A stretch of DNA of 51,796 nucleotides, taken from positions 1-51,796 of the IMG/VR virus record IMGVR_UViG_3300045136_000338; one strand, given 5' to 3'. The notes under the pieces were generated by a model. The model searched no databases. It was not told the origin of the DNA and worked only from the letters and a program-made list of their open reading frames with translations. A program made the translations under genes and the position numbers. Numbering within the stretch: the first letter of the stretch is position 1; each line of letters opens with the position of its first letter. Of this stretch, positions 1,345 to 43,689 are shown in pieces. The stretch is from a virus.

Positions 1345-3432
1345 ATGACGACGCGAACGTATCGGGTGGCGGATTTGTTCTGCGGTGCCGGCGGCTCGTC
1401 CAGTGGGGCAGCGCGCGCCGTTCGTGCCATTGGCGGGACGCTCGAGCTGGTGGCCGTCAACCACTGGGACGTGGCGATCGCCACCCACTCCCGCAACCAC
1501 CCCCAGGCCCGGCATCACTGCATCGACCTCGACGCGGCCCGGCCCGAGGAGCTGGTGCCCGAGGGGTCGCTCGACCTGCTGATGGCCTCCCCGGAGTGCG
1601 TGTTCTTTTCCCGCGCACGGGGCGGCCGTCCCGTGCATGACCAGCGCCGCATGAGCGCCTGGCACGTGCAGCGGTGGGCCAGCGCCCTCGACATCCGCTG
1701 CATCCTCGTGGAGAACGTGCCGGAGTTCCGCGATTGGGGGCCGCTGCTGCCCAACGGCCGCCCGGAACCCAAGGGCAAGGGCCTCTACTTCGAGGCGTGG
1801 CTGAAGGCGCTGTGGGCGATGGGGTATGCGGTGGACTGGCGGCTGCTCAACGCCGCCAACTACGGCGATGCCACCACGCGGGTGCGGTTCTTCTTGCAGG
1901 CCCGCAAGGACGGCCGCCCCATCCGCTGGCCGGAGCCGACGCACTCCCCCACCGGCGAGCCGGAGTTGTTCGGCCAGCGCCCGCGCTGGCGGGCCGCGCG
2001 CGAGGTGATCGACTGGACGAACCCCGGCCGCTCACTCCTGGGCCGCAAACGTCCGCTCTCCCTCAAGACGCGGCTTCGCATCGCCCGTGGCCTGCAACGC
2101 TTCGGCGGCCCGCTCGCGGCGCTGTACATCGACCTGCTGGACCTCCCGGCCGAGGACCTGGCGGCGTTGCGCGGCGGGGTGAACGGACGCGGCACCGATG
2201 CGCCCCAGCCGTTCGTGCTGGCGAACCGGAACAACAACACCGCCAAGGGGGTGGATGCCCCCGCGCCCACCTTCACGACGGCGGGCGGTGGCGGGGTGTT
2301 CGTCACGACACCGGTAGCGGAGCCGTTCGTCAGTCCCCAGCGCAAGCACACCCTCCCGCGCAGCGTGCAGACACCCTTGCCGACGATCACCGCGGCGAAC
2401 GGCAGCGGCGGCATGGCGCTGGTGGAGCCGGTGGCGGAGCCGTTCGTGCTCGGGCAGCAGAGCGGTGCGGTGGCGCGTGAGACGGAGCAGCCGCTCCCGA
2501 CCATCGCTACCGCGGGCGCGATCTCGCTGGTGGAGCCGTCGCTGATTCCGTACTACGGCACCGGCGTGGCGGACTCGGTTGATGCGCCGCTGGCCACGGT
2601 CACCACCAAAGCCAGGTTTGGCTTGTGCTGCCCGCTGGTGGTGCCCTACGGCCCGAAGGCGGAAGCACGTGGCGCTGACCAACCGTTGCCGACCGTGCTC
2701 ACGAAGGACCGGCTGGGCGTCGCCACACCCGTGATCGTGCCCTTCAACGGGGACAAAGGCGGTCCGCCACGGCCGCCGCGCAGCGTCGATGAACCGCTGG
2801 CAACGATTACCACCGAGCCGCGCTTCGGCGTGGCCACGCCCTCGGCGGAGCCGTTCATCGTACCCCAGTTCGGCGAGCGCGACGGCCAGCCGCCCCGCGT
2901 CCATGACATCACGCAGCCGGTCCCGACCGTCACCAGTCATGGGGCCGGGGCGCTGGTGGAGCCGGTGATCATCCAGACGGACCAGACCGGCGGCAATGGC
3001 GCTGGCGCGCGGTCGCTCGACCAACCGCTCGGGACGATCGTCACCAAGCAGAACGTCGCGCTGGTGGAACCTGCGCTGATTCACGTTGCCCACGGCGGCG
3101 AGGATGACCGCTCGCGTTCGGTCGAAGCGCCCCTGCCCGCGATCACGACCAAGCGCAGTGTCGCGCTGATTGCGCCGACGGCGGACCCGGTGGTGGGCGA
3201 GGTGGACCCGCGCCGCCTCGTGCTGATCGATGGTGTCCCGCACCTGCTGGACATCCGCTTTCGGATGCTGACGAACCGCGAGCTGGCGCGGGCGATGGGC
3301 TTCGATGACGACGGGGCAGAGTACACCTTCACCGGCAACGTGAGCGAGGTCACGCGCCAGATTGGGAACGCGGTGGCCGTGAACACCGCCGCCGCGCTGG
3401 TGCGCGCCGTGTTGGAGGAGCCTGCGCCATGA
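1345..3432 (+). CDS. DNA C5-cytosine methyltransferase with internal repeat insert
   Basis: This is a C5-MTase with motif I (DLFCGAGG, residues 10-17) and motif IV as PEC, with catalytic Cys85. ENV lies at 123-125, motif VIII is TRVRFF, and motifs IX/X are split far downstream (RELARAMGF and RQIGNAVAVNTAAALV). Between motifs VIII and IX lies a ~340-residue insert of about nine degenerate repeats, each ending in a PLPTITT-like block and often followed by LVEPxxEPF. The insert sits where the target-recognition domain belongs. The protein is ~700 residues, against ~350-450 for a typical member. It probably methylates phage DNA to evade restriction. It overlaps the helicase gene by ATGA. Confidence 0.9.
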   Translation: MTTRTYRVADLFCGAGGSSSGAARAVRAIGGTLELVAVNHWDVAIATHSRNHPQARHHCIDLDAARPEELVPEGSLDLLMASPECVFFSRARGGRPVHDQRRMSAWHVQRWASALDIRCILVENVPEFRDWGPLLPNGRPEPKGKGLYFEAWLKALWAMGYAVDWRLLNAANYGDATTRVRFFLQARKDGRPIRWPEPTHSPTGEPELFGQRPRWRAAREVIDWTNPGRSLLGRKRPLSLKTRLRIARGLQRFGGPLAALYIDLLDLPAEDLAALRGGVNGRGTDAPQPFVLANRNNNTAKGVDAPAPTFTTAGGGGVFVTTPVAEPFVSPQRKHTLPRSVQTPLPTITAANGSGGMALVEPVAEPFVLGQQSGAVARETEQPLPTIATAGAISLVEPSLIPYYGTGVADSVDAPLATVTTKARFGLCCPLVVPYGPKAEARGADQPLPTVLTKDRLGVATPVIVPFNGDKGGPPRPPRSVDEPLATITTEPRFGVATPSAEPFIVPQFGERDGQPPRVHDITQPVPTVTSHGAGALVEPVIIQTDQTGGNGAGARSLDQPLGTIVTKQNVALVEPALIHVAHGGEDDRSRSVEAPLPAITTKRSVALIAPTADPVVGEVDPRRLVLIDGVPHLLDIRFRMLTNRELARAMGFDDDGAEYTFTGNVSEVTRQIGNAVAVNTAAALVRAVLEEPAP
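2240..3200 (+). repeat. Degenerate in-frame repeats in the methyltransferase target-recognition region
   Basis: About nine units of ~35-45 codons each carry a P-[LVA]-[PAG]-T-[IVF]-x-T core: APAPTFTT, TPLPTITA, QPLPTIAT, APLATVTT, QPLPTVLT, EPLATITT, QPVPTVTS, QPLGTIVT and APLPAITT. They are diverged at DNA level, so they are not recent tandem copies. Confidence 0.75.
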
Positions 3433-5036
3433 CCGCGACGATCGCCACCCAGGGCCTGACCGCGCGCGTCCAGTTCACCGCCCCCTTTGACCTGGACAGC
3501 TACGCCACCTTCCTCCGCTGCAAGGGCCTGCCCGAGCACGAGTTGACCTACGACTGGGAGACGGACGCCTACACCCTCACCACTCCCGCCCGCTTCGCGC
3601 CCATGCTGGGTCGTGCCGACCTTGCGCCGGCGGAGGCGGCTCCACTGCCTCTCCCGTCGCATCTGTTCGACTACCAGGCGGCGATCATCGCCCGTGCGCT
3701 TGCCGCCCGCCGCTACGCGGTGTGGGCAGACACCGGGCTTGGTAAGACCGCGATGTTCCTGGAGTGGGCGCGGCAGGTGTCCGCCTCAGGCGGACTCACG
3801 GGCGGGCGGGTGCTCATCCTCTCGCCGCTTCAGGTCATTGAGCAGACGCGCGCCGAGTGGACGCGCTGGTATCCCGATGCCGCACCGATCGCCCGGTTGG
3901 ACAACCGCGAGGAACTGGCCGCGTGGTGTCTCGCCGGCGCGGGTCTGGCCATCTGCAACTACGAAAAGCTGACGGCGGGCGTGCTGCCCGAGTTGCGCCA
4001 CCTCGCCGGGCTGGTGGCCGACGAAAGCTCGATGCTCAAGGCACGTGGCGGGGTCGTGAAGTGGAACCTCATCAAGAGCGCGAAGGGCATCGAGTACAAG
4101 CTCTCCTGCACCGCGACCCCCGCGCCGAACGACCCGATGGAGTACGCCTCCCAAGCGCGCTTCCTCGAAAAGATGCGGACCGAGGGCGAGGTGCTGTGGA
4201 CCTTCTTCTCGCGTGATAAGCGCGGCGAGTGGAAGGTCAAACCCCACGCCGAAGCCGCGTTCTACCGCTTCATGGCGAGCTGGTCCATCTACCTGCGCGA
4301 CCCGGCGCGGTACGGCTGGACCGACATCCTCTCCACGCTCCCGCCGCCGGTGTACCACGAGGAGCGGCTGCCGCTGACGGATGAGCAGCGCACGGCGATG
4401 CACACGCTTCAGGTGCAGGCTGGCACGGGCTTCTTCGGCCACGAGCGGATGGGGGTGAAGCAGCGGGCCAAGTTCGCCCAGCTCGCGCGCGGCTTTCTGT
4501 ACGAGAACGGGGTGGCACGGCGCGTCGCAGCGTTCAAGCCGGCGCGCGTGGCGGAACTCGCCTGGCACGAGGTCGTTCTGGGGCAGTCCACCATCATCTG
4601 GACGGTCTTCGACGAAGAGGCGGCGATCATCGCTGAGCACCTGACCGGACTGCCGGCGGTCCGCTTCGTCGCCCTGGACGGGCAGATGAGCGACACCGCG
4701 CGGGCCGCCGCGATCGCCGGGTTCAAGGACGGCACCTTCAACGTGCTCCTGACCAAGCCGCAACTCGCCGGCTACGGCCTGAACTTCCAGCACTGCCGCG
4801 CGATGGTGTTCTCCGGCCTCGATGACAGCTTCGAGCGCATGTATCAGGCGGTGCGCCGCGCCTACCGCTTTGGGCAGACGGAGGCGGTGCAGGTGTACGT
4901 GCCCTACGTGCCGGAGTTGGAGGGGATGATTTTCGAGAACGTCCAGGCCAAGGAAGCACGCTTCCTCACGGACGTGGCAGCAATGGAGCAGCACTACATC
5001 GATGCGGTGAAGGAGAACCATCATGCAGTGGCCTGA
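3429..5036 (+). CDS. SNF2-like superfamily 2 DNA helicase/ATPase
   Basis: The two RecA-like lobes are complete. Motif I is ADTGLGKT (residues 100-107), motif II is DESS (198-201) and motif III is TATPAPND (228-235). The C-terminal half carries a motif V-like GLNFQHC and motif VI QAVRRAYRFGQ, the arginine-finger signature of SNF2/Swi2 proteins. The family uses ATP to translocate on or remodel double-stranded DNA. In phages it often sits in replication/recombination modules or beside modification genes. It is translationally coupled to the methyltransferase before it, so a paired modification or anti-restriction role is possible, though replication or repair is equally plausible. Confidence 0.88.
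   Translation: MTATIATQGLTARVQFTAPFDLDSYATFLRCKGLPEHELTYDWETDAYTLTTPARFAPMLGRADLAPAEAAPLPLPSHLFDYQAAIIARALAARRYAVWADTGLGKTAMFLEWARQVSASGGLTGGRVLILSPLQVIEQTRAEWTRWYPDAAPIARLDNREELAAWCLAGAGLAICNYEKLTAGVLPELRHLAGLVADESSMLKARGGVVKWNLIKSAKGIEYKLSCTATPAPNDPMEYASQARFLEKMRTEGEVLWTFFSRDKRGEWKVKPHAEAAFYRFMASWSIYLRDPARYGWTDILSTLPPPVYHEERLPLTDEQRTAMHTLQVQAGTGFFGHERMGVKQRAKFAQLARGFLYENGVARRVAAFKPARVAELAWHEVVLGQSTIIWTVFDEEAAIIAEHLTGLPAVRFVALDGQMSDTARAAAIAGFKDGTFNVLLTKPQLAGYGLNFQHCRAMVFSGLDDSFERMYQAVRRAYRFGQTEAVQVYVPYVPELEGMIFENVQAKEARFLTDVAAMEQHYIDAVKENHHAVA
3780..3794. repeat. Dispersed 15-bp palindrome, copy in the helicase gene
   Basis: TCCGCCTCAGGCGGA (17 bp with GTC...GAC extension). Encodes Ser-Ala-Ser-Gly-Gly in a loop after motif I. 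Confidence 0.7.
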
Positions 5037-5571: not shown

Positions 5572-5738
5572 GCGTCCGGTTGCGGTTCGAGCCGCGAGAT
5601 CTCTGGGTTGGTGTCTTCTGGCGGCGCACGTACAGCGTTCGTGGCGCTGGGCCGTCCGGCATCACCACCACGACCGAGGTGTTCATCTGCCTGGTGCCCA
5701 TGTTGCCGTTGCACATCACGCACACGCGGGAGAGGTGA
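5568..5738 (+). CDS. Small hypothetical protein (56 aa)
   Basis: A short frame starting at an ATGA overlap and ending in a GTGA overlap with the next gene, which is strong evidence of coupled translation. The product begins MSVRLRFEPRDLWVGVFWRR and has a hydrophobic centre (VFICLVPMLPLHI) that could be a short beta hairpin or membrane-associated patch. No family is recognised. Confidence 0.6.
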   Translation: MSVRLRFEPRDLWVGVFWRRTYSVRGAGPSGITTTTEVFICLVPMLPLHITHTRER

Positions 5739-6436
5739 GGTCCGTGGTTGGTCTGGAACCCCTCACTGCCTCAGGCATCAAGTGGGCGCAGGCACAGGTG
5801 GCCGCCCATCACTACCTTCACGCGCCGGTAGACGCGCGCAGCAGCGTCGAAGGGTACGCCGTGCGGCTCGGAGACCTGGGGCGTGTTGGCTGTCTGTTGG
5901 TCGGGCGGCCGCAGGCGACGCGCTGTAAGGACTGGTACGGCTCGGTGGAGGACGTGCAGGTCGGGCGCAGCGAGGTCACGCGCTGGCAGGTGCTCAACCT
6001 CGCGCGTGTGTGGCTCACGCCTGAGGTGCAGGCGGGCGGTGCCTACTGCCACCCGGACACGGTGCCAGGCTTCTGGGACCGCAGTGGGGCGTGGCACTCC
6101 GCCCTGGCCAGCACCGCACTCCGTCTCCTGGCTGAACGGGTGGGGTACGAGTACCTACTGGCACGGCCGCCGGTGTTCCCGGACGAACCCTACGAAATCC
6201 GCTGGCTGATGTCCTACTGCGACACGCGACTGCACCGGGGCACCATCTACGCCGCCGCCGGCTGGGAGCTGTATCGCACGAACGCCGAGGGCATCCAGAC
6301 CTGGCGCACGCCGCTGCCGCCCCTGAACGCGCACCAGCGGGAGCAAATCGAGGGACTGTCCTGGCAGCACGCAAGAGGGCGGCGTTACCGGGCCATGCGG
6401 ACGGAACAGCACGAACAACTCGCGCTGGCGCTGTAG
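5735..6436 (+). CDS. Mom-like DNA-modification acyltransferase-fold protein
   Basis: The C-terminal half matches the Mom family plan seen in phage Mu. An LARVWL strand (89-94) precedes a helix with conserved Ser/Ala, then SYCD (160-163) followed by HRGTIYAAAGW (167-177), where Mu-type Mom has an SYAD...GHxGTIY...W block. The N-terminus carries HHYLH (25-29). Mom adds a methylcarbamoyl group to adenine N6 and protects DNA from many restriction enzymes. Assignment here rests on motif recall, not an alignment. It starts with GTG at a 4-bp overlap. The next genes encode a queuosine-precursor-type transporter and a TGT-like protein, so a base-modification role fits. Confidence 0.7.
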   Translation: MRSVVGLEPLTASGIKWAQAQVAAHHYLHAPVDARSSVEGYAVRLGDLGRVGCLLVGRPQATRCKDWYGSVEDVQVGRSEVTRWQVLNLARVWLTPEVQAGGAYCHPDTVPGFWDRSGAWHSALASTALRLLAERVGYEYLLARPPVFPDEPYEIRWLMSYCDTRLHRGTIYAAAGWELYRTNAEGIQTWRTPLPPLNAHQREQIEGLSWQHARGRRYRAMRTEQHEQLALAL

Positions 6437-6453
6437 CGCAAGGAGGGCAATCG

Positions 6454-6999
6454 GTGATGTGGTTGGTGTGGTTTGCGCTCTATGGCCTGAGTGTGGTGGC
6501 GGCCAACTTCATGGTCAGCCGGTTCGAGTTCTGGCCGGTGGGGTTTGGCTTCACGGCTCCGGCCGGCGTCTATGCGGCGGGTCTGTCCTTCACCTTCCGC
6601 GACCTGTTGCAAGACGCGAAGGGGCGGCGGGCGACCTGGATTGCTATCTGCCTTGGGGCCGTCGTGTCAGCCCTCCTACCGGCGCTCTCAGCGCGGGTGG
6701 CGCTCGCCAGCGCCACGGCTTTCCTCGTCTCCGAGGCGGCGGACTACCTCGTCTACACCCCATTGCGCCGGCGCGGGTGGTTGCGTGCAGTGGCCGCCTC
6801 GAATGTGGTGGGGCTGGCGGTCGATTCGGCGCTCTTCCTCTGGCTGGCATTCGGCAGCCTGACGTTCCTGTGGGGCCAGGTGTGGGGCAAGGTCTGGGTC
6901 ACGGCGCTCGCCGTGGCGATGTTGTGGGCGTGGCGGAGGATGCGGCGTGCGCTATCTGACGAGCACCTTCCGGCCGCAGTGGTGGCCGGCGATGCGTGA
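6454..6999 (+). CDS. VUT-family membrane protein, queuosine-precursor transporter (YhhQ-like)
   Basis: About five to six hydrophobic segments span the protein (approximately residues 2-20, 30-47, 62-80, 84-102, 113-133 and 145-162). Three blocks match the VUT/DUF165 family: AGLSFTFRDLLQDAKG (42-57), SEAADYLVYTPLRRR (93-107) and ASNVVGLAVDSALFL (115-129). Family members import 7-deazaguanine precursors such as preQ0/preQ1. The next gene is TGT-like, so imported precursor could feed DNA modification. AAGGAGG upstream serves either GTG 6454 or ATG 6457. Confidence 0.82.
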   Translation: MMWLVWFALYGLSVVAANFMVSRFEFWPVGFGFTAPAGVYAAGLSFTFRDLLQDAKGRRATWIAICLGAVVSALLPALSARVALASATAFLVSEAADYLVYTPLRRRGWLRAVAASNVVGLAVDSALFLWLAFGSLTFLWGQVWGKVWVTALAVAMLWAWRRMRRALSDEHLPAAVVAGDA

Positions 7000-7600
7000 G
7001 GCGGGCATGGGTCTGATGTTGACCCCGCGTGCTGGACTGCGGCTGCGTGCAGCAGCCGCAGTCCCGGCATGGGCAGCCGATACCGGCTGCTTCAAGCGAC
7101 CTGAAGCGTTCGACCTGGAGCGTTACTTTGCCTGGCTCAGCGCGATGGAGCCGGTACGGGAGCGATGCCTGTTCGCAACTGCGCCGGATGTCGTCGGTGA
7201 TGCGACGGCGACCTGGGAGCGCAGTGCGCCGGTGTTGCCCCGCCTGCGGGCGGCAGGCTTCCGGGCGGCGCTGGTGGCACAAGACGGGATCGAGGCGATG
7301 CGCGTGGAGTGGAGCGCCTTCGACGTGCTGTTCATCGGCGGGACGACCAGTTGGAAGCTCTCGGATGCCGCGCTCGTGCTGATGGCGGAGGCGCGCAGGC
7401 GAGGGAAGTGGGTGCATATGGGCCGCGTCAACTCCCGCCGGCGGCTGCGGTTCGCGCACCTGGCCGGCTGCCACAGCGCCGACGGCACGTATGCCAGCTT
7501 CAACCCGCACGAGGCGATCACCCGCATGGGCGATGAGGCGCGGCGATTAGCCCTACAGCCGCCGCTGTTCCGGGCGGAGTTGTTGTTGGAGGCGGTATGA
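6947..7600 (+). CDS. DpdA/TGT-like protein, candidate 7-deazaguanine DNA transglycosylase
   Basis: A 217-residue protein resembling the short tRNA-guanine-transglycosylase-like proteins of phages (DpdA group). Landmarks include WAADTGCFK with Asp45, ATAPDVVGDA with Asp81, AQDG at 111-114, FIGGTTSWKLS (129-139) and GKWVHMGRVNSRRRLR (153-168). TGT enzymes swap guanine for a 7-deazaguanine using Asp residues and a Gly-rich base pocket, and phage DpdA proteins do this in DNA. Coupling to the VUT transporter supports the assignment. GTG 6947 with GGAGG upstream keeps the conserved N-terminus but overlaps the transporter by 53 nt. Confidence 0.72.
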   Translation: MRYLTSTFRPQWWPAMREAGMGLMLTPRAGLRLRAAAAVPAWAADTGCFKRPEAFDLERYFAWLSAMEPVRERCLFATAPDVVGDATATWERSAPVLPRLRAAGFRAALVAQDGIEAMRVEWSAFDVLFIGGTTSWKLSDAALVLMAEARRRGKWVHMGRVNSRRRLRFAHLAGCHSADGTYASFNPHEAITRMGDEARRLALQPPLFRAELLLEAV

Positions 7601-8133
7601 GGAATCCCACCCTGTTCGACGCAGAGCGGCTGACGCTGGATGAGGCGCTGGACCTCACGGCGCGGTCGCTTGCGACCTACTTCGAGGGCCACCCGCATGT
7701 GCGCGTGGCGTACAGCGGCGGCAAGGACAGCACGGCCACCCTCACGGTCATCGAACACCTGGTGAGCAGTGGCCGCGTCCCACGGCCGCGCTCACTTGGC
7801 GTCATCTACGCGGACACCCGGATGGAGCTACCGCCGCTGCAAGCTGCTGCCTTCGGCGTGCTCGATGTTGTGCGGGCACGCGGCTGGCAGACGGAGGTAG
7901 TGCTACCCGACATCGACCGGCGGTTCTTCGTGATGATGCTCGGACGGGGCATTCCACCCTCACACAGCGGGTTTCGCTGGTGTACAGGGATGCTCAAGGT
8001 TGAGCCGATGGAACGGGCGATGCGCGCCGAGCGTGAAGCGTTGGGTCACAAACTGCTGTTGGTTACGGGCCTGCGGATAGGGGAGAGCGCCGCCCGCGAC
8101 CTATTCTCGTTCGCGGCTGTGACAGCGGAGTAG
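7597..8133 (+). CDS. DndC/PAPS-reductase-like protein, C-terminally truncated
   Basis: A PP-loop ATPase domain with SGGKDST (40-46), YADTRMELPPL (71-81), MLGRGIPPS (114-122), GFRWCTGMLK (125-134) and TGLRIGESAARD (157-168). This order is typical of DndC, the sulfurtransferase of phosphorothioate DNA modification, and of phage PAPS-reductase-like proteins. Relatives usually continue for 100 or more residues with a cysteine-bearing region. This one ends ten residues after the ESAARD motif, and no other frame shows a recognisable continuation. It may be a degraded gene or a minimal variant. It overlaps the DpdA-like gene by ATGA and precedes the DnaC-like gene by 5 nt. Confidence 0.68.
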   Translation: MRNPTLFDAERLTLDEALDLTARSLATYFEGHPHVRVAYSGGKDSTATLTVIEHLVSSGRVPRPRSLGVIYADTRMELPPLQAAAFGVLDVVRARGWQTEVVLPDIDRRFFVMMLGRGIPPSHSGFRWCTGMLKVEPMERAMRAEREALGHKLLLVTGLRIGESAARDLFSFAAVTAE

Positions 8134-8138
8134 GGGCG

Positions 8139-9011
8139 ATGCGCGCCGTCAACTGGACCCGGCACGCCGACACCATGACCCGTCGCGGCATGACCGCGTG
8201 GTGGTTCGCCTCGCACGCGGAGCGCGGTTGTGGCGACCCGCGCGGCGGGAGGTGCGCCTGCACCTGCCCGGATCACGGCTGTGGCACCGATCGGCCGCTG
8301 GTGGCCGGGGAGCCGGTGCGGTGCGGGCGGTGCCGGGACTCCGGCTTTACCCGTCGCCGGGGGTTGCAGGTCGGCGACCCGGACTTCGGCAAAGCAATCC
8401 CCTGCCCGGATTGCAACACCGAAGCGGGCGAGGAGGCGCTGGCCGACCGCGTGCGCCGCGCCCGGATTCCCGACGCACTCTGGGAATGCGGCCAGTGGGA
8501 CCGCATCGACCAGCGGTACGGGCCTGAGCCGAAGCGGGGCGCGCGGGCGTGGGCGCAGGGCGGCTCCCAGCAAAAGCCGTTTCTGGTGCTCATGGGAAAC
8601 ACCGGCACGGGCAAGACCGCCGCGGCGGTGGCCGCTGCCCGCGACCTGCTCGCGGCGGGCGTCTCGGTGCGGTACGTGGAGACGGTGGCGCTCCTCGGCG
8701 AGCTGCGCGCCTGCTACGGCGAGGATGCGGAGCGGAGCGTGGACGCGGTGCTGCTGCCGTATCTGCGGGTGGGGTGCCTGCTCCTGGACGACCTCGGCGC
8801 GGAGAAGCCGACCGAGTGGACGGAGGAACGGCTCACCGACCTCATCAACCAGCGCCTCGTGAATCGGGCGCTCACCATCATCACCACCAATCTCACGCCC
8901 CTGACCGCCCCGCAGACGCGGCTGTGGAGCCGGGTGTTCGGGGACCGGCACGCCTTTATCGTCCCCACCGCCGGACCGGACCGGCGCAGGGAGGTGCTAC
9001 CTCCGCGGTAG
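8139..9011 (+). CDS. DnaC/IstB-like helicase-loader ATPase
   Basis: An AAA+ ATPase with Walker A GNTGTGKT (153-160), Walker B LLLDDLGAEK (about 214-223) and a sensor-like TTN (TIITTNLTP). The N-terminal half has a zinc-finger-like pair (CGRC ~62-65, CPDC ~89-92) as in phage DnaC proteins that recruit the replicative helicase. The first ~50 residues, with extra Cys residues, look poorly conserved, and the real start could be internal. It probably partners the initiator at 490 and loads the host DnaB-type helicase at the iteron origin. No phage helicase of the DnaB family is encoded here. Confidence 0.85.
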   Translation: MRAVNWTRHADTMTRRGMTAWWFASHAERGCGDPRGGRCACTCPDHGCGTDRPLVAGEPVRCGRCRDSGFTRRRGLQVGDPDFGKAIPCPDCNTEAGEEALADRVRRARIPDALWECGQWDRIDQRYGPEPKRGARAWAQGGSQQKPFLVLMGNTGTGKTAAAVAAARDLLAAGVSVRYVETVALLGELRACYGEDAERSVDAVLLPYLRVGCLLLDDLGAEKPTEWTEERLTDLINQRLVNRALTIITTNLTPLTAPQTRLWSRVFGDRHAFIVPTAGPDRRREVLPPR

Positions 9012-9047
9012 GAAGTTCGTCACACAGCTAGAAAGGATGCCCCGCCA

Positions 9048-9329
9048 ATGCCGCCCGTGGACCGCTTGCCAGAACAGGCGAACTACCGTGATGAGGGGTG
9101 TGATCTCAGCCCCACGTGCCTGCGGTGCCCGCTCCCCCTCTGCCGGTACGACCTGCCGCCGAAACGTGCCGGGGCGCTGGTTCGCGTGGCACGGTTGCAG
9201 GCGCTCCTCGCCGAGGGCAAGACGGCGGATGAGGCGGCGGAGATCATGGGCGTCTGCCGTCGCACCATCTTCCGGCTCAAGCAGTACGCCACGATGTACA
9301 GCACCAGTATCCCGCTCCAACTGAGGTGA
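9048..9329 (+). CDS. Small Cys-rich helix-turn-helix protein
   Basis: The 93-residue product joins a cysteine cluster (C18, C24, C27, C32 in DLSPTCLRCPLPLCRYD) to an HTH (about 48-82, ALLAEGKTADEAAEIMG and RRTIFRLKQYA). This pairing of a short zinc-type cluster and a resolvase/sigma-like HTH recurs in phage and bacterial small regulators. It probably binds DNA or tunes transcription. AAAGGA lies 11 nt upstream of the ATG. It sits between the replication and late genes, a position where late regulators are often found. Confidence 0.7.
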   Translation: MPPVDRLPEQANYRDEGCDLSPTCLRCPLPLCRYDLPPKRAGALVRVARLQALLAEGKTADEAAEIMGVCRRTIFRLKQYATMYSTSIPLQLR

Positions 9330-9333
9330 CGCC

Positions 9334-9870
9334 GTGACCACCGAGACGCGCCTGACGATCACCCTCGACCTCACCGACGTGGGCGAGACGCCGCAGACGG
9401 TCGGCTCCTGCCCGGTGTGCGGCGGACCGCTCCGGGCGTGGCGGCAATGGGGCTGCCCGGTCATCCAGTGCGGCAACATCGCCCACCCGCGCCTTCGCGG
9501 TGAGGCCCTGAGCGCAGGAGCAGGCGACGGAGCCGCCGCGACCGCCCCGTCTCAGGACGGCGAGCAACTGCGCCTGAGTGAGTACACGGCTGCACCGCCT
9601 CCACCGACCCCACCAGCAACCGCACCCGCGCCGTCAGCGTCACCCGCGCCCGCATCCGCCTCAGGCGGAAACGTCGTGCGGTTCGGGTTGGTGGAGGCGG
9701 TGCCCATCGAGACGAGCCGGGGCAAGTATTACCAGTCGCTCGCCCGCTGCAAGGCGCACGGGTTCTCGCACTGGTACGCGCGCATCACGGAAGCGGGGCT
9801 GACCCCGTGGCGGCACAAGACCGTGAGCGGGGAGACCTGCACGATGGCCGAACCGCCCGCGCCAGAGTGA
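9334..9870 (+). CDS. Hypothetical protein with N-terminal zinc ribbon and Pro/Ala linker
   Basis: GTG start 4 nt after the previous stop. The N-terminus holds a zinc-ribbon-like set (C26, C29, C41, C46). A Pro/Ala/Ser-rich linker (about residues 85-112) joins it to a C-terminal domain with YYQSLARCKAHGFSHWYARIT. The linker is partly encoded by a 15-bp palindrome (9655-9669) that also occurs in two other genes. No known family. The linker suggests two independently folding parts. Confidence 0.65.
   Translation: MTTETRLTITLDLTDVGETPQTVGSCPVCGGPLRAWRQWGCPVIQCGNIAHPRLRGEALSAGAGDGAAATAPSQDGEQLRLSEYTAAPPPPTPPATAPAPSASPAPASASGGNVVRFGLVEAVPIETSRGKYYQSLARCKAHGFSHWYARITEAGLTPWRHKTVSGETCTMAEPPAPE
9655..9669. 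repeat. Dispersed 15-bp palindrome, copy in the linker of the zinc-ribbon gene
   Basis: TCCGCCTCAGGCGGA, self-complementary apart from the central base. Identical copies lie at 3780-3794 (helicase gene) and 42760-42774 (papain-like gene). Each is read as Ser-Ala-Ser-Gly-Gly in the same frame. Confidence 0.7.
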
Positions 9871-10704: not shown

Positions 10705-10759
10705 ACGCTGTCAGTTGATGCGCCAGAAACGAAGCGTCATACCCCATAATGGTGAGGAT

Positions 10760-11443
10760 ATGGACAAGACAGCACTCGCGGCCGTTCCCCTCTCGCCGGA
10801 CCTCTACGACGCGCACTACTACGGCCACGAGCCGCCCTACACCGCGAACTATCGGTTTTACGGCCAGCCGCACTGGTCGAAGCCGCTCGCTGCGTGGCTC
10901 GTGGCGCAGACGACCGGCCCCTGGCTCGACGTGGGCGCGGCGTTCGGCTATCTGACCCGCGACCTTGCGGCGCTCACTGAGGACCCAGAGCGCGCCTGGG
11001 CCGCCGAGTGGAGCGCCTACGCGGTGAAGCGCGCCGTCACCGACCGCATGGTGCAGGCCGATGCGCGCGAGTTGCACCAGCACTTCACGCCGGGCACGTT
11101 CGGCACCGTCACGAGCATGGACCTGCTCGAACACCTGGAGCCGGCGGACACCGAGCGCGTGATTGATGAGATCGCGGCGCTGCTCGTGCCGGGTGGGTGG
11201 AGCGTCAACCTCGTGGGCTGGCACAACCCCACGCATGACCTGGCCGCGCACATGAGCGACCCCACCCACCGCAACCATGAGCCGATCCGCTGGTATCTGC
11301 GGGCGTTCTGGGCACGCGGGTTCACGCTGGACCGCCCCCGCACCCGTGATCTGAACCTGCATCCGGTGTGGGCGGAGAGCGATTGGCGCGGGCGATGGAT
11401 CGTTATGCAGAAGCCGGAGGACGGAGAAGGGGTGCGGGCATGA
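10760..11443 (+). CDS. Class I SAM-dependent methyltransferase
   Basis: A Rossmann-type methyltransferase with motif I WLDVGAAFGYLTRDL (about 55-69), an acidic strand after it, TSMDLLEHL (118-126) and LLVPGGW. This is the Methyltransf_23/UbiE-like arrangement for small-molecule or glycan substrates. There is no DPPY/NPPF motif of an adenine-N6 DNA methyltransferase. A glycosyltransferase follows at 12035, so surface-glycan or modified-base decoration is possible. ATG 10760 lies very close to GGTGAGG; an alternative in-frame TTG start at 10715 would add 15 residues. It overlaps the next gene by ATGA. Confidence 0.8.
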   Translation: MDKTALAAVPLSPDLYDAHYYGHEPPYTANYRFYGQPHWSKPLAAWLVAQTTGPWLDVGAAFGYLTRDLAALTEDPERAWAAEWSAYAVKRAVTDRMVQADARELHQHFTPGTFGTVTSMDLLEHLEPADTERVIDEIAALLVPGGWSVNLVGWHNPTHDLAAHMSDPTHRNHEPIRWYLRAFWARGFTLDRPRTRDLNLHPVWAESDWRGRWIVMQKPEDGEGVRA

Positions 11444-11649
11444 AGGCGCTGCGCTGGCGGATCGGGTGCGGGTGCCGGGCGGATGTCCGGGGGAAGGAGA
11501 CGAGCCTGTTCGCGTGCGGCCGGCACCCGCCGGACGACGCCAATGACATCGCCGCCTGTTTGCGGCTGTTTGAGGTGCTAGCGGCGCTCGCGGGCGTGCC
11601 GGAACCCGCCGCCGCACCCTACGCCGGCGGTGTGTTGTGCGTGAATTGA
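11440..11649 (+). CDS. Small hypothetical protein with Cys cluster
   Basis: Coupled to the methyltransferase by ATGA. The 69-residue product has cysteines near the N-terminus (CGCRADV...FACGRH) followed by an alpha-helical Ala/Leu-rich part. It could bind zinc. No family recognised. A 55-bp hairpin repeat begins 1 nt after its stop. Confidence 0.55.
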   Translation: MKALRWRIGCGCRADVRGKETSLFACGRHPPDDANDIAACLRLFEVLAALAGVPEPAAAPYAGGVLCVN

Positions 11650-11650
11650 G

Positions 11651-11705
11651 ATAGTCTACGAGCGGGTGTAAGTGTTGAAATGCAACGCTTACCATCGCAC
11701 ATGGA
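11651..11705 (+). repeat. 55-bp hairpin repeat, copy 1
   Basis: Intergenic element with stem arms GTAAGTGTTG and CAACGCTTAC around an AAATG loop, preceded by ATAGTCTACGAGC and followed by CATCGCACATGGA. About 47 of 55 positions match the copy at 36288-36342. A 32-bp right half recurs at 19456-19487. No T-run follows, so it is not a standard intrinsic terminator. Confidence 0.8.
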
Positions 11706-11713
11706 AGGTTCAC

Positions 11714-11911
11714 ATGAAGCGGTCAGGACGGCGGGGATTCCTCAAGATGCTGGGCCTTGCACCGGCAGCGATGGCGGTGCCAGATGTGGAGCGTGCAGAC
11801 ACAGAGCTGCCTGCACCGCCGGCCGATATGTTGCCGCCCGCGCCCCCAAACGCGCCGGCACCAGAACCGGTACGGCTGTCGCACATCAAGTCCTTTATGA
11901 CCTACGTATGA
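11714..11911 (+). CDS. Small protein with twin-arginine-like N-terminus
   Basis: The N-terminus RSGRRGFLKMLGLAPAAMAV resembles a Tat signal (RR-x-F-L-K followed by a hydrophobic stretch), then a Pro/Ala-rich segment and a short tail. At 65 residues it is little more than the signal and linker. Similar RRGFLK mini-proteins occur in some phages, but I know of no assigned function. It starts directly after the hairpin repeat and its stop overlaps a tiny coupled frame (11908-11952, 14 aa). Confidence 0.5.
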   Translation: MKRSGRRGFLKMLGLAPAAMAVPDVERADTELPAPPADMLPPAPPNAPAPEPVRLSHIKSFMTYV

Positions 11912-11951
11912 CCTACGGCCCGATCTCTTGGCATGATGATGAGGTGCCGTG

Positions 11952-12035
11952 ATGCTGGTGTTGCACCTGCTGACGGTGCTGGTGATAGTGGCACTTTACG
12001 TCTACACGTGCGTGCGTCTCCTGGGGGTGGTGTGA
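11952..12035 (+). CDS. 27-aa single-pass membrane peptide
   Basis: TGATG-coupled at both ends: the ATG overlaps the stop of the 14-codon frame starting at 11908, and its stop overlaps the glycosyltransferase ATG. The product MLVLHLLTVLVIVALYVYTC is almost wholly hydrophobic, a predicted membrane helix. It may be a translational-coupling leader or a membrane anchor for the glycosyltransferase. The short length makes it uncertain. Confidence 0.4.
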   Translation: MLVLHLLTVLVIVALYVYTCVRLLGVV

Positions 12036-13288
12036 TGCGGGTGCTGCTGCTGGGGGACGGGATACGGCTGACGACGGGCTTCGCTCAGGTGTTGCGGCCG
12101 ATTGCTCTTGAGATGGTACGGCGGGGGTGGGCGGTGAGCCAGATGGCGGGGTTCGATACGGCCCCGTTCTGTGACTCGCGCCCGTACCAGGACCTCGGCG
12201 TCCGCCCCTACTTCCCCGCGGGCGCGGACATCATGGGGATGCGGCTGCTGGGACAGGTGCTCGAAGATGCGCGACCCGATTGCATCCTCATCGTTTGCGA
12301 CCCCGGCTCGGCCCACGGCTGGCTCGCGGTGCTCGCGCAAATCGGGCAGGCGCACATCCCCACGGTCCTCTACGCCCCCGTCGAAGGCGCGCCCATTGGA
12401 CCGATGCTTGCCGCCCCCTTCCGCCTCGCCACCCGTGCCTTCACCCCCACCGCCTGGGCCGCCCGTGTGCTGGCCGCCGAACACGGCCTCATCATCCCCC
12501 ACGTGCCCCACGGCGTTGATACCACCGTCTTCCGCCCCCTGGACCCGGAGGAGCGGGCCGCCGTCCGCGAGGAGATGGGCTGGGCCGGCAAGTACGTCGT
12601 GGCATACGTCGCCCGCAACATCGAGCGCAAGGCCCACGACCGCCTCATCAAAGCCGTCGCCATGCTCCACCGACAGGGCATGACCGACCTCCATCTCTAC
12701 CTCCACTGCAAGCCCAACGACCTCCTCCCCCCGCGCGGCTTCGACCTTGCGGGCATCGCGCGCTGGGCAGGTGTGGCCGCCCACGTCCAGTTCGCGGTGC
12801 AGGACCACGCAACGCAGGGCGAGCCGTCCGCCACCTTCGCGCAGAAGCTCGCGGCCGCCGACCTCTACGTCTCCCCGTCGAAGGTCGAGGGCTTCGGTCT
12901 GCCGCTGCTTGAGGCCCTGGCCTGCGGGCTGCCGGTGTGCATCCCCGCCGATGGGGGCAACCAGGAGGAAGTCACCGGACCCCTCGGTATCCGCATCCCC
13001 GTGGCGGACTGGGACACGTGGTTTACGGGCGCGCAGCTCGCATGCGTGGCCCCGGAAGCGATCGCGGGCACCATCGACATCCTCCGTACCAAGCGCGACC
13101 CGGCCCAGCTCGCGGCGCATGCGGCGAAAGGGCCGGCATGGGCAGCGCAGTTCTCGTGGGAGCACATGGCGAACACGATGGCCGATGCTGTTGCAGAGGC
13201 TGTTGATACAATACGGAGCAACAAGCCGTCAGACCGGGGCACAGCAGAGATGCCGGTCGAGGTCGCGGCGGCGGATGTGGCGGGGTAG
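12035..13288 (+). CDS. GT-B glycosyltransferase (GT4-like)
   Basis: A 417-residue two-domain GT-B enzyme. The donor-binding half has YVARNIERKAHDRLI (~190-204), the hallmark EGFGLPLLEALACGLPV (~287-303) and a downstream acidic/Gly segment. The N-terminal MRVLLLGDGIRLTTGFAQV matches the start of GT4 proteins. It transfers a sugar from an activated donor. Possible targets are a modified base in phage DNA, a virion protein or host surface glycan. The methyltransferase nearby and the DNA-modification genes at 5.7-8.1 kb make decoration of DNA or glycan the main options. An extended in-frame start near 11933 is less likely than the TGATG-coupled ATG. Confidence 0.87.
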   Translation: MRVLLLGDGIRLTTGFAQVLRPIALEMVRRGWAVSQMAGFDTAPFCDSRPYQDLGVRPYFPAGADIMGMRLLGQVLEDARPDCILIVCDPGSAHGWLAVLAQIGQAHIPTVLYAPVEGAPIGPMLAAPFRLATRAFTPTAWAARVLAAEHGLIIPHVPHGVDTTVFRPLDPEERAAVREEMGWAGKYVVAYVARNIERKAHDRLIKAVAMLHRQGMTDLHLYLHCKPNDLLPPRGFDLAGIARWAGVAAHVQFAVQDHATQGEPSATFAQKLAAADLYVSPSKVEGFGLPLLEALACGLPVCIPADGGNQEEVTGPLGIRIPVADWDTWFTGAQLACVAPEAIAGTIDILRTKRDPAQLAAHAAKGPAWAAQFSWEHMANTMADAVAEAVDTIRSNKPSDRGTAEMPVEVAAADVAG

Positions 13289-42648: not shown

Positions 42649-43689
42649 ATGGGCCGGTATGACCCCCCGCCTGCTGGCACCAATCCCCTGGACTATTACC
42701 ACCCCGATGCGGTGGTGCCCTCGCCCCCCGACCCGCGCGACCATCCTGCCGCCCCCCCGTCCGCCTCAGGCGGACCGCGCCAGGTGTTCCCCAAAGTCCA
42801 CATGCTCTCGCGTGGCCGCCCGGAGAACCAGGAGGACCGCGGCTCCTGCGTGGCCTTCTCCGCAACCCGCATGATGGAGCGCGCCTACGCCGACCACCGG
42901 GGCGAGGACGCGCAGTTCTCACCGGAGTTCGTCTACGCCGAAGGGCGGGCGGCCATCAACCAGCTCTGCACCGACTCCGGCATGTGGCCCCGGCAGGCGA
43001 TGGATACCCTGCACCGGCGCGGTGTGCCCACCGAGGCGGAGCTGCCCTACAAGAGCCGCGATATCTGCTGGCGGCCGGGGCAGGCGGAGTACGCGGCGGC
43101 GGAGCGCAACCGCATCACCGAGTACGCCCGCTGTATGCAGCCGAGCGGCCAGGCCCTCATCGATGAGGTGAAGGCCGTGCTCTACGGCGCGGGCGGCAAG
43201 GGCCACCGCGTCTCCATTGTGCTGCACCTCTCCGTCACGTTCGGGCAGACCGGCGCGGACGGGCTGATGCCCGACCCGGACATGGCCCAGCGGTGGGGCG
43301 CGCACATGATGGACGTGCGCGGTTGGGATGACACCGCCTGGGGCGGCGGCTTTTGGGTGGAAAACCAGTGGTGGACCACCTTCGGGCGCGAGGGTGAGAT
43401 CTTCGTCCCCTACCGCATCTTCCTGTTGCCGGAGGAGGCGGGTGGTGCGTGGCGCGGCGACCTGTGGAGCCTGCGCGTGCCGGTGAAGGTTGAGCCGGAG
43501 CCGCAACCGCAGCCGCCCCAGCGGAAGGTCTACGTGCAGATTTGGGAGCGGCCGGCGGAAGGCGACGATTTCACCATCCACGCGATCGAGCGCCCCGTGC
43601 CCTTGGGCGGCGCGTGGGTGACGGTCAAGCAGCAGCGGGGCGACGAGCCGGAGGAGGAGATCGTGCCCTTCCTCCGGGTGGAACCGTAG
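42649..43689 (+). CDS. Papain-like (C1-type) cysteine peptidase
   Basis: The catalytic set is in order: Gln61 (oxyanion), Cys67 in RGSCVAFSA, His219 in GAHMMDVRGWDD and Asn239 in FWVENQWW, closely following papain Q/C/H/N. A Pro-rich N-terminus (encoded in part by the 15-bp palindrome) and a C-terminal beta domain after EPEPQPQPPQ flank it. Papain-like peptidases are uncommon in phage genomes. It sits with the holin-like and endolysin genes, so cell-envelope or virion-protein cleavage are the options. No signal peptide. Confidence 0.8.
   Translation: MGRYDPPPAGTNPLDYYHPDAVVPSPPDPRDHPAAPPSASGGPRQVFPKVHMLSRGRPENQEDRGSCVAFSATRMMERAYADHRGEDAQFSPEFVYAEGRAAINQLCTDSGMWPRQAMDTLHRRGVPTEAELPYKSRDICWRPGQAEYAAAERNRITEYARCMQPSGQALIDEVKAVLYGAGGKGHRVSIVLHLSVTFGQTGADGLMPDPDMAQRWGAHMMDVRGWDDTAWGGGFWVENQWWTTFGREGEIFVPYRIFLLPEEAGGAWRGDLWSLRVPVKVEPEPQPQPPQRKVYVQIWERPAEGDDFTIHAIERPVPLGGAWVTVKQQRGDEPEEEIVPFLRVEP
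42760..42774. repeat. Dispersed 15-bp palindrome, copy in the papain-like gene
   Basis: TCCGCCTCAGGCGGA, again with the GTC...GAC extension and again read as Ser-Ala-Ser-Gly-Gly, in the Pro-rich N-terminus. Confidence 0.7.

Follow-up and report, generated by a model that had tools for sequence, protein, structure and literature searches.

The Mom protein of phage Mu adds a methylcarbamoyl-type group to adenines in DNA. Acting on another base, DpdA-type enzymes place 7-deazaguanines in phage DNA (PMC6884629; PMC11888242), and in phage CAjan DpdA is needed for dPreQ0 in the DNA as well as for resistance to restriction (PMC6884629). The known preQ0 transporter YhhQ (PMC6884629; PMC11888242) is found in some DpdA phages, and for phages with DpdA alone a host or exogenous precursor has been proposed (PMC6884629). 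The halovirus HRTV-29, which has DpdA without the pathway, was taken to rely on that of its host, a PAPS (3'-phosphoadenosine 5'-phosphosulfate) reductase also being listed for it, and a VUT transporter with a DpdA-type gene has already been reported in haloviruses (PMC8651126). About 9% of the bacterial dpd islands have YhhQ (PMC11888242). Here we describe a locus in the metagenomic virus record IMGVR_UViG_3300045136_000338 from IMG/VR (51,796 bases, possibly incomplete; this whole stretch is called the window), in which a Mom-like gene stands directly upstream of a VUT transporter gene and a short DpdA-like transglycosylase gene. We read this locus, with a probability of about 60%, as a phage anti-restriction operon that joins two independent routes of DNA-base modification.

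Results and discussion

The locus comprises four co-directional open reading frames (ORFs) on the plus strand between positions 5735 and 8133: a Mom-like gene (5735-6436), a VUT-family gene (6454-6999), a DpdA-like gene (6947-7600) and a DndC/PAPS-reductase-like ORF (7597-8133). They are tightly packed, with a 17-nucleotide (nt) gap between the Mom-like and the VUT gene, a 53-nt overlap between the VUT and the DpdA-like gene and a 4-nt overlap between the last two. Codon-position GC of the four ORFs (0.79-0.85 at the third position) is as usual for coding sequence in the window genome, which has a GC content of about 67%. The initial annotation had described a compact four-gene modification island; the ORFs are real and three of the four labels stand, whereas the DndC-like label needs correction.

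The VUT gene encodes a membrane protein of 181 amino acids (aa) from the VUT/queuosine-precursor-transporter family, with several hydrophobic segments. It passes the Pfam cut-off for Vut_1 (46.4 versus 27.2 bits, E 7e-12) and matches phrog_4899 at 3e-36. As far as its sequence tells, it belongs to Vut_1 and is akin to preQ0 transporters, and its exact substrate is putative.

The DpdA-like gene starts with GTG and encodes a protein of 217 aa, for which Pfam, NCBIfam and PADLOC gave no family match. It matches phrog_15826 at 2.5e-64, a short phage family of about 210 aa listed by PHROGs with unknown function, and among annotated phages several depositors name its homologues 'DpdA-like tRNA-guanine transglycosylase'. 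The AlphaFold2 (AF2) model is a confident TIM barrel (predicted local distance difference test, pLDDT, 94.3), and structures of tRNA-guanine transglycosylase (TGT) dominate the list in structural alignment (Z 15.9, 201 residues, 2.7 Å). In 39 DpdA-like sequences 16 columns are invariant, including D45, P80-D81, Q112, H157, G159-R160, N162, R166, S177 and D179-G180. The motifs ADTG (D45), APD (D81), AQDG (Q112), GG131-132, HMGRVN and SADG (D179) occupy the ends of six successive strands and have counterparts in equal order in E. coli Tgt (TDSGG, FDEC, IIQG, GGLAVGE, YLMGVG and DMFD), a correspondence matched by eye without a significant sequence alignment. Because it combines a TGT-like fold and motif order with missing zinc ligands, we name the protein TGT-like and treat it as a member of a short family of its own. 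It is predicted to be a small enzyme that swaps a modified-guanine precursor into DNA.

The DpdA proteins of phages and dpd islands (PF23859; phages 9g, CAjan and Rosebush) share with the window protein, as judged from the fold prediction, the TGT-like barrel and the active-site motifs, and both kinds of gene adjoin Vut_1 or QueC genes. Unlike them, the window protein falls into the separate family phrog_15826, is missed by the PF23859 profile (no match at E<=1) and is encoded in a record without preQ0 synthesis genes. With hhalign, the family aligned to PF23859-type proteins at E 0.002 and a probability of 13%, with two Asp-Ser/Thr-Gly motifs in register. These hhalign comparisons, to E. coli Tgt as well as to PF23859-type DpdA, were weak, and since the PF23859-type profile also misses E. 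coli Tgt, their failure says little. A search of PDB sequences with the family profile returned chance matches only.

Two relatives differ in architecture. In contig L045 (10001-10717) the DpdA-like protein carries a cysteine-rich, zinc-ribbon-like insert just past the GG motif, and the gene directly after it encodes a PP-loop protein from another family. Arthrobacter phage Sonali (L070) has two TGT-like genes, one from the short family and one that is longer (5875-6492 and 8862-9752), and is also annotated with QueC, QueD, QueE and FolE.

The transporter and the short transglycosylase form a recurrent pair, which has been reported in part before. DpdA-like homologues were found in 67 IMG/VR viral contigs and in 24 of 50,697 phage records. 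A VUT homologue lies within the examined stretch in 52 of 73 DpdA-like loci, mostly overlapping or adjacent, a count that includes the window twice (as itself and as L001); in the less redundant set, 31 of 50 DpdA-like contigs have a Vut_1 match. The VUT family is likewise rare (29 of the 50,697 phage records), and despite this rarity both families are common to Aoka, ReqiPine5 and StevieRay-type mycobacteriophages. Kinship among the records inflates all of these counts. Arthrobacter phage Aoka, Rhodococcus phage ReqiPine5 and mycobacteriophage StevieRay carry the two genes adjacent or nearly so and in the order of the window, in ReqiPine5 with a full-length PP-loop gene directly downstream; unlike in the window, no Mom gene is annotated or seen in these stretches. 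In phiLM21 the VUT gene adjoins a DpdA recognised by Pfam. The related record G058, whose terminase is 61% identical to that of the window, has retained the gene order C5-cytosine DNA methyltransferase (C5-MTase), VUT, DpdA-like, with the pair upstream of the terminase gene. The initial annotation had proposed that transporter and TGT-like protein salvage a 7-deazaguanine precursor and insert it into DNA, and the Vut_1 match, the TGT-like fold with its motifs and the recurrent pairing all support such a pair.

It had further stated that preQ0 biosynthesis genes are missing. This holds for the window record, incomplete as it may be: QueC, QueD/PTPS and FolE gave no family match, and no large coding frame contains a CxxxCxxC motif. 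A few other contigs do have QueC close to a gene of the DpdA-like family. That VUT replaces preQ0 synthesis was considered as well, and the mutual exclusion of VUT and QueC was a non-significant tendency only (1/31 versus 3/19, p 0.15, with one hit, in G017, set aside as a PAPS gene).

A TGT fold with TGT motifs would also suit an enzyme acting on tRNA, and bacterial Vut_1 proteins serve the salvage of queuosine for tRNA (YhhQ in E. coli, as cited in PMC11888242), so the pair might increase queuosine-type modification of tRNA and leave DNA untouched. We regard this as unlikely. The family is short and does not have the zinc site of the tRNA TGTs, the neighbours of the gene in the window are DNA-modification genes, and in Sonali the short family occurs alongside genes for preQ0 synthesis and another TGT-like gene, as is the case in DNA-modifying phages. 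DNA remains the presumed target.

The Mom-like gene, also with a GTG start, encodes a protein of 233 aa with a GNAT-type fold. It passes the curated cut-off of the Pfam Mom family PF25680 (28.1 versus 27.1 bits, E 1.9e-6) and matches phrog_1384, 'Mom-like DNA modification protein', at 1.3e-9. In a 10-member alignment that includes Mu Mom, the invariant positions are H26-Y27, G52, R91, S160, D163, G169, Y172 and A174, all of which the window protein keeps; the residues H48, Y49, R101, D139 and Y149 of Mu Mom (AF083977 numbering), invariant in the family, correspond to H26, Y27, R91, D163 and Y172. An AF2 model built on 25 Mom sequences has a moderate pLDDT of 72, with low confidence in the loops around 70-78 and 99-114. 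Its best PDB match is the solved Mu Mom structure 8bv8 (Foldseek E 1.2e-7), to which it aligns with Z 14.8 over 173 residues at 2.9 Å, the next GNAT reaching 13.3. The entry 8bv8, in which the molecule is called methylcarbamoylase, bears the title 'inactive mutant S124A', and the residue mutated there is S114 in AF083977 numbering; its counterpart is S122 of the window protein in the smaller alignment A3, and the larger alignment A4 shifts this loop. Family cut-off, top structural match and retained key residues thus bear out the Mom-like label. The structural comparison proposed with the initial annotation gave Mu Mom as the best match for this model and a TGT fold, not decisive as fold alone, for the DpdA-like model.

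The window protein is a real relative of Mu Mom, and by analogy it would modify adenine. Both proteins have the GNAT-type fold, share H48, Y49, R101, D139 and Y149 and fall within the Pfam Mom cut-off, whereas their identity is only about 19%. The genes also differ in context, as Mu mom sits with com at the right end of Mu and the window gene with a transporter and a transglycosylase. A structured leader before the Mom-like gene, comparable to Com/Mom regulation, was looked for, and folding was no greater than that of shuffled sequences (z +1.1).

As a companion of DpdA-like genes, Mom is scarce. It was present in two of 50 DpdA-like contigs, in L026 several kilobases (kb) from the DpdA-like gene and on the other strand, and in L068 as an intact gene directly upstream of a C-terminal DpdA-like fragment (region 2712-3810). 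The reverse test covered 115 loci retrieved with two further Mom proteins. Their sole VUT match, L173, is identical with the L026 contig, and in the 114 others no member of the DpdA-like family lay within about 8 kb of Mom. Searches of viral and genome contigs with degenerate patterns from the window Mom-like protein retrieved no Mom relatives, and the mixed alignment proved too diverse. In 26 terminase-related control contigs neither Mom nor PAPS genes were detected; the Mom search had no positive control there, though it did detect Mom when applied to the DpdA set. The placement of Mom immediately before VUT-DpdA is the unusual element and appears new within the material searched. Since all parts are known and there are precedents for VUT-DpdA, the novelty lies in this combination and not in a new kind of system.

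These counts (2/50 DpdA contigs, 0/114 Mom contigs), together with the failure to detect Mom in G058 and the truncation of the DndC-like gene, would also fit a locus in which only VUT-DpdA functions and in which a recombination hotspot carries Mom, perhaps unexpressed or inactive, and the DndC-like fragment as transient cargo. We consider this somewhat doubtful, as Mom is intact, keeps the family-invariant residues, lies 17 nt upstream of VUT and has coding composition. The two-route operon is hence the reading that we follow for the Mom-like gene as well.

The fourth ORF, of 178 aa, shows a real similarity to DndC/PAPS reductases of the PP-loop type (TIGR03183, E 5e-19; PADLOC DndC, 2.5e-21), which stops at about residue 168 of a family of about 400 aa. 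With TIGR03183 it scores 68.4 bits against a cut-off of 290.4 and covers the N-terminal half only, so that it does not qualify as a full-length DndC. Close homologues, which come from phages of Rhizobium, Pseudomonas and Microcystis, have lengths of 398-476 aa, and their ECGQGW and GCxxCPL motifs lie in the part that the window ORF is missing. Within the family phrog_12882 (Rhizobium phages RR1-A and RHph_N28_2), it is 52% identical to the RHph_N28_2 protein over the N-terminal half and, unlike these proteins, has no C-terminal ~230 residues. A frameshift as the source of the truncation was considered and rejected, as tblastn found no remnant of the C-terminal half of the family in the window. 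DndB, DndD and DndE were absent from the 10 nearby proteins tested (PADLOC, E<=0.01). Because the C-terminal cysteine region is missing, the ORF is probably dead; from its sequence we take it to be a decayed, likely inactive remnant, and its initial assignment as a working component is not supported. In G058 (L128), a stand-alone 122-aa ORF at 9426-9794 of the reverse complement resembles the C-terminus of the DndC/PAPS family in its last ~70 residues, with no PAPS-domain match in that record; pieces of this family thus persist separately in the phage group of the window.

One could suppose that the N-terminal half has kept a function, by itself or jointly with a C-terminal part encoded elsewhere, for example in adenylating or thiolating a base precursor. 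Its PP-loop motifs SGGKDS and RWCT are intact, different full-length PP-loop genes adjoin or lie near VUT-DpdA in ReqiPine5, L043, L045 and L026, and G058 has the stand-alone ORF just described. The loss of the half with the conserved cysteines, the lack of any remnant in the tblastn search and a next gene that begins 5 nt past the stop codon make this very unlikely; PAPS enrichment in DpdA contigs over the terminase-related controls was likewise not significant (4/50 versus 0/26, p 0.29). A decayed remnant is thus retained as our reading of this ORF.

Taken together, in the first route the phage Vut_1 transporter would import a 7-deazaguanine precursor, presumably preQ0 or preQ1, into the infected cell. 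The short DpdA-like transglycosylase would then exchange guanine for this precursor in phage DNA after replication by the TGT mechanism, with roles assigned by comparison to TGT: the covalent intermediate would form on D179, D45 would be the second acidic residue, and D81 and Q112 would recognise the base. Independently of this, in the second route the Mom-like enzyme would add a methylcarbamoyl-type group to adenines, as Mu Mom does. The DndC-like remnant would probably have no role. That the Mom-like enzyme was instead re-targeted from adenine to the base inserted by DpdA, for example by acylating the free aminomethyl group of preQ1 in DNA, which would yield a new hypermodified 7-deazaguanine, seems to us highly improbable.

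Several points weigh against the two-route operon. The VUT protein stays below the equivalog cut-offs of TIGR00697 (39.8 versus 50.95 bits, E 4e-10) and PRK11212 (YhhQ; 25.1 versus 252). The Mom-like model is only of moderate confidence and was derived from aligned Mom sequences. On fold, TGT is equalled by other TIM barrels (pyruvate kinase, Z 15.7; thiazole synthase by Foldseek), so that fold alone is not decisive and the motif order is what separates TGT from a generic barrel. The Cys3-His zinc site of canonical tRNA TGT is absent, with no Cys after residue 175 of the DpdA-like protein, and its family has no direct sequence match of useful significance to TGT or to the Pfam DpdA family PF23859. 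In the literature examined, the phrog_15826-type family has no member of demonstrated activity, and phage Orion, with DpdA and without a precursor source, had no 7-deazaguanine (PMC6884629).

Concerning the phage itself, the window encodes a DnaC-like loader, a large terminase-like protein (presumed from its sequence to be the terminase), a tape-measure protein and a protein resembling Mu I, and therefore looks like a tailed phage. Megablast of its first 20 kb against the 50,697 phage records gave no match. Upstream of the operon, on the same strand, lies a C5-MTase gene (1345-3432; Pfam DNA_methylase, 2.5e-30). A long insert between its N- and C-terminal conserved blocks repeats a PLPTITT-like motif at least 7 times, at a spacing of mostly 32-39 residues. 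In G058 a homologue 59% identical and aligned along its length immediately precedes VUT-DpdA, and in phages RR1-A (phrog_12882) and phiC725A a full-length DndC/PAPS-like gene has a C5-MTase as its direct neighbour. To call the combination of the island with a C5-MTase unusual, as the initial annotation did, was overstated. Elsewhere, between the helicase loader and the terminase, the window carries a SAM (S-adenosylmethionine) methyltransferase and a GT4-type glycosyltransferase (10715-13288; Pfam Glycos_transf_1, GT4-conflict) and, downstream of the structural genes, a papain-family cysteine protease (42649-43689; Peptidase_C1, 1.3e-11).

Conclusions

The two routes to restriction-resistant phage DNA that we propose here are known ones and rarely occur together. 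If our reading is true, one operon marks two bases by two unrelated chemistries, and the guanine analogue is taken up, not made. The short transglycosylase family, of unknown function in PHROGs and outside Pfam, is tied in most relatives to a dedicated transporter. This supplements an earlier account in which phage YhhQ is uncorrelated with particular phage groups (PMC6884629). If true, the short VUT-DpdA pair would also be a compact, testable means of placing 7-deazaguanines into DNA in laboratory E. coli.

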